Shown piece after piece: positions 17,134 through 37,100 of a DNA stretch of 64,000 bases (its first letter is position 1; each line of letters begins with the position of its first letter). The position numbers and the translations under genes were made by a program. This DNA is from Spirochaetota bacterium (GTDB taxonomy: Bacteria; Spirochaetota; Spirochaetia; Treponematales; UBA12059). The stretch is from positions 124,001 through 188,000 of the forward strand of contig JAKPPT010000122.1 of NCBI GenBank assembly GCA_029547205.1, in the 5' to 3' direction. The notes under the pieces were generated by a model that ran no database searches, was not told the origin of the DNA, and saw nothing but the letters and a program-made list of their open reading frames with translations.

Positions 17134-18459
17134 TTACTGAAATCCGCCCAGCATTTTTTTGTTTTTTACCATTTTTTTCATCATCGAACGAGTCTTTTCA
17201 AAATCCTTAAGCAGTTTTGCAACCTCTGCAACAGAAGTGCCAGACCCGCGTGCTATTCTTGACCGACGAGTAGGTCCAATAATGAGATGATTGAGCCGCT
17301 CTTTTTTAGTCATCGATAATATGATAGCTTCATTTCGTTTGAGCTGATTCTCATCAATCTGATCTTCTGAAATCTGCCCTGCAAGACCTGGCATCATATC
17401 AAGTACCTGTTTCATGGATCCCATTTTTTTAAAGCGGCGCAATTCCTGTAAATAATCCTCCAGCGTGAACGTTTCTTTTCGAAGTTTTTGTTCCAGCTCG
17501 AGTGCTTCCTGTTCTTCAATCACAGATTGAGCTTTTTCTACCAGCGATACGATATCGCCCATACCTAAAATACGGTTTGCCATTCTATCAGGATAGAAGG
17601 GCTCAAGACCATCAGGTTTTTCCGAAATACCAACAAATTTGATTGGCTTACCGGTAATCGATTTAATTGAGAGCGCTGCACCGCCCCGAGTATCTGAATC
17701 GAATTTGGAGAGAATTACCCCAGTTAAACCAACTTTTTCATCGAACGTTGTAGCAATATCGACTGCAGTCTGCCCAGTCATGGCATCTGCAACCAGTAAA
17801 ACTTCATCGGGTTTGATGGCTGTCTTCATTGCCACCAGTTCCTGCATCATCGCATCATCAATCTGAAGACGGCCTGTTGTATCGATGATTACAACATCAA
17901 AAAGTTCTTTTCGTGCTCGTTCAAGAGCTGCTTTAGCAATAGGTAATGGATTCTTTTGAGCACTGTCTGCTGGCATTGGATTGGTGTGCACAGCAATTCC
18001 AAGCCCGGTGCCAAGTGTGACAAGCTGATCAACAGCAGCCGGTCGAACGAGGTCACAGGCGGCTAAGAGTACACGCTTATTTTTGTTTTTAAAATAATTG
18101 CCTAATTTTGCTGCCGTTGTAGTTTTACCGGATCCCTGAAGACCGACAAGCATGATTACAGTAATACCGTCCTTGAGCACAATATCTTGCCTGCTGTCTC
18201 CGAGGAGCGCAGTAAGGCGGTCATGCACAATTTTAACAAACTGCTGACCAGGAGTAACAGACCGCAGAACTTTCTCACCCTTTGCTTCTTCAATGGTACC
18301 ATTAACAAAACGGCGTACAACACGTACATTGACATCAGCTTCCAGCAAAGCAATTTTTATAGCTTCAACTGCGTCTTCGATGTTTTTTTCAGTAATGGAA
18401 GCTTTTCCGCTAATTTGGCGGACGATATCGCCCATTTTTTGTGTCAATCGTTCTAACAT
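17134..18459 (-). CDS. ffh: Signal recognition particle protein Ffh
   Basis: A 441-residue SRP54 GTPase, the usual length. The N domain opens with MLERLTQKMGDIVRQISGK. The G domain has GLQGSGKTTTAAKLG, DLVRPAAVDQL, DTTGRL and LSKFDSDTRGGAAL. The M domain is methionine-rich and has the RNA-binding segment RIARGSGTSVAEVAKLL. Ffh with 4.5S RNA delivers nascent membrane proteins to FtsY. The ribosome site AAGGA precedes the start. No ffs, rpsP or rimM lies in the window. One copy of the GGGTCTGACCC palindrome lies only 21 bases before the start codon, so it is probably in the 5' untranslated region. Confidence 0.97.
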   Translation of the reverse strand: MLERLTQKMGDIVRQISGKASITEKNIEDAVEAIKIALLEADVNVRVVRRFVNGTIEEAKGEKVLRSVTPGQQFVKIVHDRLTALLGDSRQDIVLKDGITVIMLVGLQGSGKTTTAAKLGNYFKNKNKRVLLAACDLVRPAAVDQLVTLGTGLGIAVHTNPMPADSAQKNPLPIAKAALERARKELFDVVIIDTTGRLQIDDAMMQELVAMKTAIKPDEVLLVADAMTGQTAVDIATTFDEKVGLTGVILSKFDSDTRGGAALSIKSITGKPIKFVGISEKPDGLEPFYPDRMANRILGMGDIVSLVEKAQSVIEEQEALELEQKLRKETFTLEDYLQELRRFKKMGSMKQVLDMMPGLAGQISEDQIDENQLKRNEAIILSMTKKERLNHLIIGPTRRSRIARGSGTSVAEVAKLLKDFEKTRSMMKKMVKNKKMLGGFQ

Positions 18460-18479: not shown

Positions 18480-18521
18480 GGGTCTGACCCTTTAGCTGCT
18501 TAAAAAAGGTGGGTCTGACCC
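18480..18521 (+). repeat. Two REP-like palindromes upstream of ffh
   Basis: GGGTCTGACCC occurs at 18480-18490 and 18511-18521, each followed by CTTT-rich sequence. Five-base arms (GGGTC/GACCC) flank a single T. The second copy extends as CCCTTTTGTCAATTTT, almost identical to the copy inside the nearby transposase gene. The surrounding interval 18460-18768 is otherwise AT-rich with no gene seen. Confidence 0.75.
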
Positions 18522-18768
18522 TTTTGTCAATTTTTTCGATATTATGCAGGGTTAAACAATTCTGGTCAACAGAATATATTCAATTTTTTGTCTAATTTGA
18601 GATAATTATTTTTTTGTTTTTGGAAAATTTTTATTAGTTTCAGAATTTTTAGAATCAAATTTGACAAATTATAGTACAATTCAAATGCATTAAGGATATA
18701 GTTAGCCCAACATTTTTTTATTGAGAATTAAAATAAAAATAAAATCTACGGTCTACTGGTAGCTTATA

Positions 18769-19380
18769 CTACTTTTTATGCTTTCGCTTATGCTTTTTCA
18801 TTTTAATTTGCATTGTCACATTAAAAATTACTTTTTTTGTGATTTCTTTCTGCCTAAGGGTCTGACCCTTTTGTAATTTTGATATAGCCTTCATATGCAA
18901 ATCAACTGACCAGGGGCTCATCCAGCGCGATACAAAATCAGGCGCAAATCTATAAAACGCAAGCGAACTCCATGGCCAGCTTAGTTCATTTTTAACGAGC
19001 TCTGCTTTTACTGGATTTTGATTTAGATATTCAAAACATTGTTCCACATCGTTTTGCGTTCTGAGTACACGTGAAAAATATCTATCGCCCCAGATGTGCC
19101 CAGTTCGTTTCATAGCCTTGTTATAGCGAATTGTATATGTCATCAACAGTCGCTGCATAATTTTGGGGAGTTCCATATCTAACGTGCTAATAATAAAATG
19201 TACATGATTATCCATAATCGCAAAGTGTTCGAACTTAAAACCCATCTCTGTCTGAAGTTTTTCCATAATCTCTAACATGATGCTTTTACAGAGCACTTCC
19301 TGTAGATGCAACTCTCTATTATTTATTCGTGCACTTACATGGTAAGTACCACCAGGCACGAGTTCGCGCAGTTTACGCAT
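18769..19380 (-). CDS. REP-associated tyrosine transposase (RAYT, Y1 family)
   Basis: A 203-residue protein starting at the ATG at 19380, which has a strong AAGGAGG site; upstream codons in frame look non-coding. The single-strand transposase HUH motif is HVHFI in AIMDNHVHFIIS, and the catalytic tyrosine lies in CFEYLNQNPVKAELV, the RAYT YLNPV-type helix. The start PGGTYHVSARINNRE is also typical. RAYTs mobilise or process REP palindromes and are usually single-copy domesticated elements. The reading frame runs through a GGGTCTGACCC copy (18858-18868, encoding part of KLQKGQTLRQ) into a very basic lysine/histidine tail, so the C-terminus may have been extended by the repeat. Confidence 0.88.
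   Translation of the reverse strand: MRKLRELVPGGTYHVSARINNRELHLQEVLCKSIMLEIMEKLQTEMGFKFEHFAIMDNHVHFIISTLDMELPKIMQRLLMTYTIRYNKAMKRTGHIWGDRYFSRVLRTQNDVEQCFEYLNQNPVKAELVKNELSWPWSSLAFYRFAPDFVSRWMSPWSVDLHMKAISKLQKGQTLRQKEITKKVIFNVTMQIKMKKHKRKHKK
18858..18868 (+). repeat. REP-like palindrome inside the RAYT coding region
   Basis: A third GGGTCTGACCC, followed by CTTTTGTAATTTTGATAT. It is in the last 35 codons of the transposase gene. Confidence 0.75.
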
Positions 19381-19507
19381 ATATGCCTCCTTGAAAAAAG
19401 AGATTTTTTGCATTGCAATACTTGCACATACGGTTAAACTGCTTGAGACCAATTTCTGCATGCACTTTTCATTGATAAAACAGCATTTCTGTGTATACAA
19501 TAAGTAC

Positions 19508-21394
19508 ATGGCAACAGATATCGATGTTCTTCAACTTTTAAAATCATACGCACAGAAAAACCGAACCTATGATATTGGTTATCGAAATTTTGCAATAACA
19601 CTATCAAAGCAGTTTAGAGCTGCAGATCAAACTATTCCTCTCTATCGAGACCTTGTGCTAAACCCAGATGTCGTGCTCGTTCCAAGACTGATGAAATTGG
19701 CTCAAAAGCGAGAAGTCGCCCTTATACTCGCAGGCAATGAAATTGACACGATTCGCTTGCCAGAATCATGTATTAACCCTCTCATAGCTGAATATGCACG
19801 CATTGAAGAATTCCCGGAAGTACCGTTCCCCGATGAAGAAATGCTAAAACTCTCAATTCCTCCCGAATGGATTCTCTCAATAGGCATTGATGATGAATTT
19901 AAGAGAGTCCTTGATGCAGAAGACACCAATAACATCCCCATTTGCAGAATTTCATTTCCGGAAGGAATTAAATCGATGATAATTCCTGTGGAAACAATTA
20001 AAAACAAGCTCCTCGAATTTGCTATATTAAAAATCAGACATTATTTGCGTAAAGGCGCTAACAAAGATTATATCCAGCAGCGGCTTTTAGGTGCTTTTCC
20101 GACTAAAGATATGCTCGTTAGAGATTCCATGACCGGTATTCTCATTAAGCCATACGATCTCATTTCAGAAATTCAAAATGCGAAGAGTGATTTTACATTC
20201 CCATTTGTGGCATATCTCAACAATTCTATCCGTAAGGATATTATGAACAAAGGTGAGCAAACCCCAGATGATGTAGCGGTACTTCAGGCTACCTATATTC
20301 TTGATTTATTCACCAATTATCATAAAAGCAAAGCACAGCGCTCTTTTGACCGCGACAATGCATTTAAAACACTGGAACAGCTATTGGGAAAAGCACCATA
20401 CGCATATACTATCGAAGATATCTGTGATTTCCGTGATAGCCAGGGTCGTCCACTCTTAGGAAAATATACACGCGAAGAACTAGAAGACTGGCTGAAAGAA
20501 AAAACACGAGCTAAAGATGAAAACCATCTTCCTCAAATCCTTATACTCACGATTAAAGGACAACAGCTCTTTATAAAATTAGAATTTTTTCTTCCATATA
20601 TAGTCAACTTAATAAACAACATACGTCCAGGAGTACGATCAAAAATTATTCAGGAATGGCAAAGCATCATGTATCAGTTTGAAAAAATACCTGCCATGCT
20701 TTCCGATGAAGATTTTAACAAGTACCTTTCCTATAAAATTGATGAAATCAATCCAGCCCTATCGCAAGCATTGGCAAGTGGTTTTGCGCCACTAGTCTAT
20801 CAAGAAATTTATGGTTCACGAGGCGAAAAAAATAATCTTTATCCTCTTTTTGGCAATCTGAAACAAGCACCACTCAATGTACTCCTCCACCTTGACCGAC
20901 AGCATCTGCTTACTGATGTTAAAATTCTACTCCCTATCTGGTACACAATTCCTCTACTTTCATGGTTTTATAAGCTCATAAAAAAGATCAGTAAACGAAA
21001 ACCCCAAAAAGAACAAACAAAACGACAGGAACAGCCAGTCGCAAGACCTGAAAACAATCGAGCGCTGGAATTTTCTCAGATTGCAGGAAAATTAGAAAAG
21101 GATATTGTTCCACAAAACTATACAATCGATCAGTACCTGATGCTGCTCATTGACAAGTGGAATACCCTAATCAATCCAGAAGCTAAACGGAACCTGGTTG
21201 AAGACATCAATTCGCTCGTACGTGATTATCTTAGAAAAACACTCCGATCCATGAAACCATCTTCATTAACCCTTGAAAGAGTTGATTCTATGGCTAATAA
21301 TCTCCTCAGAGTTCCTGCACTCATGCAGATAAAAAATCATGGGGCTTTGCGAGAATACATTAAAACATATTTTTTAAAACTGCTTAAACGTTAA
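19508..21394 (+). CDS. Uncharacterised 628-residue protein
   Basis: I recognise no family. The protein is soluble for most of its length, rich in leucine, isoleucine and charged residues and probably mainly helical. A hydrophobic stretch near residues 475-490 ([18 protein letters not shown]) is followed by a highly basic linker ([18 protein letters not shown]), which suggests a membrane-proximal hinge before a helical C-terminal domain. The frame is open from 19391, but the first 39 codons overlap the divergent transposase leader; the ATG at 19508 is the more natural start, although no good ribosome site precedes either. Next comes a chemoreceptor gene on the same strand after 60 bases. Probably a spirochaete-restricted cytosolic or membrane-associated protein. 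Confidence 0.6.
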
Positions 21395-35828: not shown

Positions 35829-37100
35829 ATGGCACGAGAATATCCTAAATTAAAACTCGATAAATCACTCGCCATGTTTGAAGAAGCTAAACGGCTTTCT
35901 CCAGGCGGCGTTATGGGAATTAGACGCCCTTATAATTTTGTAGAAGGCGAATATCCAATATTTTTGACTCATGGTTATGGCGGACACATTGTTGATGTCG
36001 ATGGAAACGACTACATCGATATGCTCTGTGCCTACGGACCTATTATCCTTGGGTACAATGAGCCGGAAATCAATGAGGTTGTAAAAGCACGCATCGATAA
36101 GGGGTTCTGTTTCAGTCTTGTTCAACCTGTTCAAAATGAATTCGAACAGCGCATCATCGATATGGTGCCGTGCGCAGAAATGGTTATTCCGGTAAAAACC
36201 GGGTCTGACGCTACATCGCTTGCAGTCCGCATAGCCCGCGGATATACCGATAAGTCTGTCATTCTCCGCTGCGGCTACCATGGCTGGCATGATTGGTGTG
36301 TTGAGGTACACGGTGGTGTTCCGGAAGAGACGCTGGCTCTCACCGATGAGTTTGAATACGGCGATATTGCTTCGCTTGAAGAAAAACTCGATGCACATAA
36401 GGGTAAGGTTGCCTGTGTAATTATAACACCAGTTGGACACCCGCTTGCAAAACCAGTACAGGCTCCGCCTCCCGGTTATCTTGAAGCTGTAAAAGAACTC
36501 ACGCACAAGCATGGTGCAGTACTCATTTTTGATGAAATCCGCACCGGTTTCCGGGCAAGTCTTGGCGGCGCACAGGAGCGCTATGGCGTAACTCCTGATC
36601 TTGCGACGTTTGGCAAGGCTGTTGCCAATGGCTACCCCATCTCGCTTGTTGCTGGTAAAAAGGAAATCATGAGCATCTGCGAGAAAAAGGTATTTGTTTC
36701 TTCCACATTCTTCCCAAACAGCATTGAAATGGTGGCTGCACTCAAGTGCACCGAAATTCTAAAACGAGAAGATGTCCCTAACAAAATCTGGGAACGTGGT
36801 ACAAAATTTCTGGCTGAACTTGAAAAGATTGTGAATGATCTTAAGGCTCCTGTGCGCGTCTCAGGCATACCGCCTATGCCGTTCCTGACGTTTGAACAGG
36901 CACCTGGAGACCCAGACAAAACCTATAAACTCCGACGTGAATATTTTTATACCCAGACCATAAGGCGCGGACTCTTTATCCAGCCCTTCCATCACTGGTA
37001 CATTGCATACCGCCACACCGATGAAGACCTTACCCGCGCTTTGACTGCAATCCGCGAAAGTATGGAGTTAATGCTGGAGAAGTATCCTGCAAAGCAGTGA
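35829..37100 (+). CDS. Class III PLP-dependent aminotransferase in the lysine operon
   Basis: From the ATG at 35829 (AAGGA site) 423 residues. Fold-type I, class III (glutamate-1-semialdehyde aminomutase/omega-aminotransferase family). The start LSPGGVMGIRRPYNF is GSAM-like; TGSDATSLAVRIARG binds phosphate, YHGWHDW stacks on the cofactor, IFDEIRTGFR contains the PLP aspartate, and the PLP lysine is Lys263 in FGKAVANGYP. No hem genes are nearby, so a heme role is unlikely. Lying between kdd and kce, it probably acts on beta-lysine, 3,5-diaminohexanoate or a related amino acid. It is not part of the textbook kam operon; its reaction is unknown. Confidence 0.88.
   Translation: MAREYPKLKLDKSLAMFEEAKRLSPGGVMGIRRPYNFVEGEYPIFLTHGYGGHIVDVDGNDYIDMLCAYGPIILGYNEPEINEVVKARIDKGFCFSLVQPVQNEFEQRIIDMVPCAEMVIPVKTGSDATSLAVRIARGYTDKSVILRCGYHGWHDWCVEVHGGVPEETLALTDEFEYGDIASLEEKLDAHKGKVACVIITPVGHPLAKPVQAPPPGYLEAVKELTHKHGAVLIFDEIRTGFRASLGGAQERYGVTPDLATFGKAVANGYPISLVAGKKEIMSICEKKVFVSSTFFPNSIEMVAALKCTEILKREDVPNKIWERGTKFLAELEKIVNDLKAPVRVSGIPPMPFLTFEQAPGDPDKTYKLRREYFYTQTIRRGLFIQPFHHWYIAYRHTDEDLTRALTAIRESMELMLEKYPAKQ

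Follow-up and report, generated by a model that had tools for sequence, protein, structure and literature searches.

Why does one 11-base palindrome, GGGTCTGACCC, recur three times around a single transposase gene, once inside the gene itself and twice in the leader of ffh? In the 64,000-nucleotide stretch of DNA analysed here (the window), three exact copies lie at 18480–18490, 18511–18521, and 18858–18868, all in the same orientation. We consider the locus likely to be a RAYT unit, now partly eroded, in which a Y1/HUH transposase gene goes together with its cognate short repeat, and hence an instance of a known pattern. An earlier sequence-only reading had counted three copies within 390 bases, which our window search reproduced at the same places, but its placing of one of them in the last codons of the transposase did not hold: this copy spans residues 171–175 of 203, and 28 residues follow it.

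The transposase is encoded on the minus strand (18769..19380). The ORF as listed runs from a TTG at 19509 (18769–19509, 246 aa); most likely, however, translation starts at the ATG at 19378–19380, behind a Shine-Dalgarno-like AAGGAGG (19386–19392), giving a protein of 203 aa. Its proposed RAYT identity was borne out by matches to PF01797 (5.2e-14; no other Pfam domain) and NF047646 (88.7 bits, cut-off 80), with both the HuH motif (NHVH, residues 58–61) and the Y-x3-NP motif (Y118, N122-P123) intact. TnpAREP 4er8 was the best solved relative of a profile built from the five paralogous RAYTs of this genome, and one scan of named genomes (three loci) returned one close named relative, from 'Spirochaetes bacterium ADurb.Bin215' (39% identity). 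The host and the related genomes compared below are probably spirochaetes.

With up to one mismatch allowed, the window contains seven matches to the repeat (the three palindromes on both strands, plus one at 36201), against a mean of 0.23 and a maximum of 2 in 100 window shuffles. The copies at 18511 and 18858 indeed have a longer tail in common (CCCTTTTGT(C)AATTTT, with an extra base in one). Searching the whole genome (2,653,957 bp) yielded four exact copies, three in the window and one on contig C69, and none of the backwards control. The copy on C69 (C69:112583; L014:4584) has 16 bases, GGGTCTGACCCTTTTG, in common with two copies in the window; it is read in frame as KGSDP within an ORF that, from its translation, we take to be iorA-like; in an attempted insertion test of this copy, the ORF had no solved relative at E 1e-20. 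The existence of this further copy, and the fact that the tails of the genome's other four RAYTs are unlike one another, are both compatible with the earlier proposal that a repeat had moved into the transposase. An Rfam scan of the window found only one tRNA, away from the locus.

The in-gene copy (GGGTCAGACCC at 18858..18868, minus strand; KGQTL) was placed by paralog alignment as well as by the window search. The closest paralog, C63b (58% identical), stops at the aligned position of window residue T174, with the ends of the other paralogs no more than about seven aligned residues away. Since the copy thus overlaps the C-terminal codons at which the closest paralog ends, it is plausible that the window gene gained the repeat and lost its former stop; translation now continues through 28 further residues encoded by A-rich DNA. 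This is as far as the proposed movement into the 3′ end can be followed: neither an empty site nor an orthologue free of the repeat was found, and hence no movement was seen.

The suggestion that the basic tail came from the repeat itself is not supported: the repeat encodes only some five residues (KGQTL), and those that are basic stem from the A-rich DNA behind it (18772..18855, minus strand). The 28 residues of this extension, delimited by alignment, together carry a charge of +11. None of the 215 in-frame read-through tails examined reaches this value; of 221 composition-matched open 84-mers, a set whose members overlap one another and may include the tail's own DNA, 2 reach it and 219 fall short. 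It could accordingly be argued that copy and tail are adaptive, the repeat having been captured as the gene's own site for self-regulation or mobility and the tail aiding nucleic-acid binding. Against this, when the tail's own 84 nt are shuffled, 1,533 of 20,000 open sequences reach the same charge, which weakens the case for a selected domain, and the tail is missing from all four paralogs. The extension is therefore probably an A-rich read-through rather than a domain, and one without a function. In a structural model predicted from three sequences only (mean pLDDT 66.7), which is too weak to rely on, the tail forms a helix with a pLDDT of about 60–70.

An adaptive role for the in-gene copy draws further support from other RAYTs. 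Among 41 intact RAYT ORFs in the loci examined, eight have the repeat core [GT]G[TA]CAGA[CG] between the catalytic Tyr and the stop codon, a count that includes the window gene and two pairs of close relatives (L054/L070, L073/L169) and leaves out L056, whose core lies across the stop. The opposite orientation was found in none, backwards controls in three and one of the 41, and shuffles gave a mean of 0.82 and a maximum of 5 (500 shuffles). This recurrence also speaks for the RAYT-unit account, with the hits in the backwards controls as a point against. However, the repeat is read in different frames in different lineages (GQT in the window gene, CQT in L047, GTDP in L052, and VSDT in L073 and L169), arguing for placement at the level of DNA rather than for a selected peptide. 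Terminal repeats that overlap the 3′ end of the gene ('3'ov') have already been described, as the available portion of PMC3733652 documents.

The in-gene repeat recurs in a further setting. Two other genera of the order contain multi-copy RAYT-derived ORFs, seven in genome G071 (L173, cut by a contig end, and L175, L177, L179, L181, L183, and L185) and nine distinct ones in G168 (L164/L186, L170, L174, L176, L178, L180, L182, L184, and L187; two further G168 matches lie outside the set examined). In these ORFs, a [DE]D-x-x-x-F stretch takes the place of HuH and the segment with the catalytic Tyr is absent; two members scored 34.1 and 36.1 bits against NF047646 (cut-off 80), and 27 and 33 against PF01797 (cut-off 23). 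Nevertheless, GGGTCAGACCC is present in 16 of the 16 copies, in frame as VRP and 68 to 113 nt before the ORF end, a point in favor of an adaptive in-gene copy. Judging from substitution rates, the family is under purifying selection, with mean dN/dS values before the repeat of 0.15 in G168 (36 pairs), 0.29 in five G071 copies (10 pairs), and 0.33 in the two other G071 copies (1 pair). Behind the repeat, the values rise in all three groups (to 0.31, 1.25, and 0.62, respectively), which speaks against an adaptive tail. Weighing these points, we regard the adaptive reading of copy and tail as unlikely and retain the partly eroded unit as our preferred account.

Pairwise similarity between the G168 copies breaks off at differing distances around the gene, which fits dispersed copies. 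A tree on 108 columns, weakly resolved and with long branches, united the G071 and G168 members and L165 on a branch of their own, away from our genome's five RAYTs. L165 itself (from G001) is missing both the HuH and the Tyr motif and has no 11-mer at its end. In the part of PMC6006769 available to us, the survey retained only sequences with HuH and Tyr, and a non-catalytic family would thus be filtered out there; none of the titles listed in a literature search that covered few subscription papers reports one. Tentatively, and with the odds rather against it, the repeat at the RAYT 3′ end may be a stable evolutionary state that can outlast catalysis: the G071 and G168 proteins would be repeat-binding non-catalytic partners, with the in-gene repeat as their handle for spread in trans, and the window gene an early example, still intact, of such an arrangement.

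The two remaining window copies lie in the leader of ffh (SRP54; 17134..18459, minus strand; PF00448, PF02978, PF02881), likewise on the minus strand, one 247 nt past the RAYT stop (18511..18521) and the other 278 nt past it, 20 nt ahead of the ffh ATG (18480..18490). These distances have counterparts elsewhere in the genome. The first downstream copy of the respective repeat is found at +290 and +288 in C63a and C63b, the two closest paralogs of the window gene, and at +568 in C82 and +900 in C45. As the distance from the RAYT stop resembles that in the closest paralogs, the ffh-side copies make most sense as the unit's 3′ boundary, which would merely happen to abut ffh.

At the other end, all four paralogs possess an upstream copy, 131–179 nt ahead of the gene (−131 to −179). 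In C63a, C63b, and C82, the nearest copy on the upstream side is inverted relative to the nearest one downstream; in C45, both have the same orientation. No upstream copy was present in the stretch searched for the window RAYT, where position −131 already falls within the neighboring gene (ATG at 19508); we infer that the window unit has lost it. The octamer TGCATGCA is found upstream of all five RAYTs, 65–118 nt upstream in the four paralogs (L010–L013) and at 19457..19464 in the window (strand not assigned), where a second, imperfect copy (TGCAATGCA) follows at 19409–19417. The neighboring gene, which is divergent from the RAYT (19508–21394), has no Pfam match.

Could the ffh-side copies instead regulate ffh, as an element that is transcribed with the leader, pairs, and acts on translation or on the messenger? 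A weak promoter-like match (TTGACC-17-CATAAT; 18541..18569, minus strand) does lie upstream of both, and pairing between the two is predicted at −19.5 kcal/mol (z −2.41), a value that 6 of 200 shuffles also attained. Yet promoter-like matches are no more frequent in the region than in shuffles (5 versus 5.0 expected), and the spacing from the RAYT stop is the one seen around the closest paralogs. Moreover, tblastn detected a RAYT in none of the 24 ffh loci examined from 22 other family members (several of them cut by contig ends; L098 is a paralog rather than ffh), suggesting that the arrangement is, as far as seen, not an old feature of ffh. An effect of the leader copies on ffh is possible, but that they constitute an ffh regulatory element strikes us as quite improbable, and the boundary of a RAYT unit is the better description. 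Six of the 24 ffh loci show a homologue of the divergent gene, always downstream of ffh, implying that the region around the RAYT has been rearranged; for the same reason, a search for an empty site at ffh offered no clean comparison.

The rest of the genome ties the repeat to the RAYT. The genome encodes five Y1 (RAYT) genes: the window gene and four paralogs of 174–180 aa (C45, C82, C63a, and C63b), of which C63b scores just under the NF047646 cut-off (79.1 versus 80). Their flanks hold different repeats, namely CACCTGGTAC for C45, ACCTGGCACC and GGTGTCAGGT for C82, GGGTCTGTCCC for C63a, GAGTGTCCC for C63b, and GGGTCTGACCC for the window gene. Genome-wide, these have 85, 67, 28, 58, and 4 exact copies, respectively, compared with 0–5 for the backwards controls of the five patterns; the GGGTCTGTCCC count was taken from a one-mismatch search with 49 matches against 12 in the control, all variants together. 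On the contig of the cognate RAYT lie 72/85 copies for C45, 64/67 for C82, 9/28 for C63a, 36/58 for C63b, and 3/4 for the window gene. Counting similar flanks once, using the 10-base core GGTCTGTCCC for C63a, and covering five contigs, we found within 25 kb of the cognate RAYT 54 of 66 copies for C45 (expected 3.6), 39 of 41 for C82 (2.2), 13 of 47 for C63a (2.5), 26 of 43 for C63b (2.3), and 3 of 4 for the window gene (0.2), where the expectations assume a uniform null on contigs chosen for holding either a RAYT or copy number four of the window repeat. Least local is the GGTCTGTCCC family, 15 of whose 48 copies lie on C69, a point against the RAYT-unit account.

Because each of the five paralogs is surrounded by a repeat of its own, the window repeat is very likely cognate to the window RAYT, as had been proposed, and its copies are a small case of local seeding around that gene. 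In this host, every one of the five diverged RAYTs is paired with a repeat and a territory of its own. Judging from relatives, the protein probably recognizes its repeat as single-stranded DNA, and it would copy or move it mainly into nearby DNA. At C82:82458–83796 (L118), ACCTGGCACC copies form a dense mosaic array with longer units common between them, a sequence pattern for which local duplication may have acted beside transposition. That the three window copies are a mere chance cluster of an 11-base palindrome is scarcely credible, even if the genome total is only four and single copies are common in relatives, given the window shuffles, the genome-wide backwards control, the location of three of the four copies within 1 kb of the center of one RAYT, and the like behavior of the paralogs' repeats.

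Gathering of repeats around RAYTs extends to related genomes. We searched GGGGACAGASC in 12 distinct relatives, some of which had been picked because their RAYT flanks showed that sequence. In five of the eight relatives that could be judged, copies were gathered on the contig of the single RAYT located (8/11 in G028, 13/20 in G190, 25/52 in G050, 13/21 in G018, and 6/12 in G015, five of the latter within 8 kb). In the other three, they showed no such concentration (1/22 in G177; 3/23 in G005, a very fragmented assembly; and 4/31 on the two RAYT contigs of G175). These exceptions, like the small size of the window family, weigh against the RAYT-unit account. RAYT places or copy lists were incomplete for G036, G013, G007, and G022, which therefore stand outside the eight. 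Of 194 genomes searched, 81, our own included, have one or more copies of the window 11-mer GGGTCTGACCC, which reaches 143 copies in G011 and 104 in G049. Four of 12 copy-rich genomes (G011, G002, G047, and G107) had no PF01797 match, although a protein search did find one in G002. G011, G047, and G107, with 143, 44, and 15 copies of GGGTCTGACCC and no PF01797 match, are drafts that are 95, 88, and 69% complete; either their repeats are orphans, or their RAYT is too diverged or absent from the assembly.

The locus has the features of the RAYT/TnpAREP group (class 2 TnpAY1) in its motifs, its NF047646 score above the cut-off, and its own flanking, albeit one-sided, repeat family. As far as the consulted sections of PMC2817692 and PMC8266576 go, it resembles RAYT/REP systems in having one repeat per RAYT, concentrated near the RAYT in some hosts, but differs in that the palindromes are short and weak, the GT[AG]G foot is missing, the window family has only four copies, and the host is outside the groups named there. 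No consistent foot flanks the four copies (GTGG overlaps GGG in one), and with all three window copies in the same orientation there is no REPIN or inverted pair; none of the titles listed in a literature search with the repeat sequences concerned bacterial REPs.

TIRYT and TIRtrons, described in PMC3733652 and placed with TnpAY1 subclass 2.1 by PMC6006769 (both cited from the portions at hand), come close as well. They share the Y1 transposase, repeats near GGGGWSAS—which GGGGACAG of paralog C63a fits and AGGGTCAG of the window misses at the first base—and terminal repeats able to overlap the gene's 3′ end. Unlike them, the window gene is without an upstream copy and hence without terminal inverted repeats, Pfam detected PF01797 but no C-terminal helix-turn-helix in it, and the paralogs measure 174–180 aa, where subclass 2.1 has a median length of 238. 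Subclass 2.4, as covered in the same portion of PMC6006769, also has the repeat in frame inside the transposase gene, yet generally between HuH and Tyr, whereas here it lies past the Tyr, near the C-terminal end.

The literature thus already covers REP-RAYT pairing, GGGGWSAS repeats, overlaps at the 3′ end, and local accumulation, the last for GTAG-type RAYTs (PMC2817692 and PMC8266576, in the parts seen); the non-catalytic family is less expected. Local accumulation here concerns short repeats without a GTAG foot, in the RAYT's own genome and in five relatives. With five RAYTs, five repeats, and five territories, this one genome is a natural experiment in how the target of an HUH transposase changes and in the distance from its own gene over which the enzyme acts. 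Should the non-catalytic relatives be confirmed, they would have a bearing on why RAYTs persist when they are not transposing.
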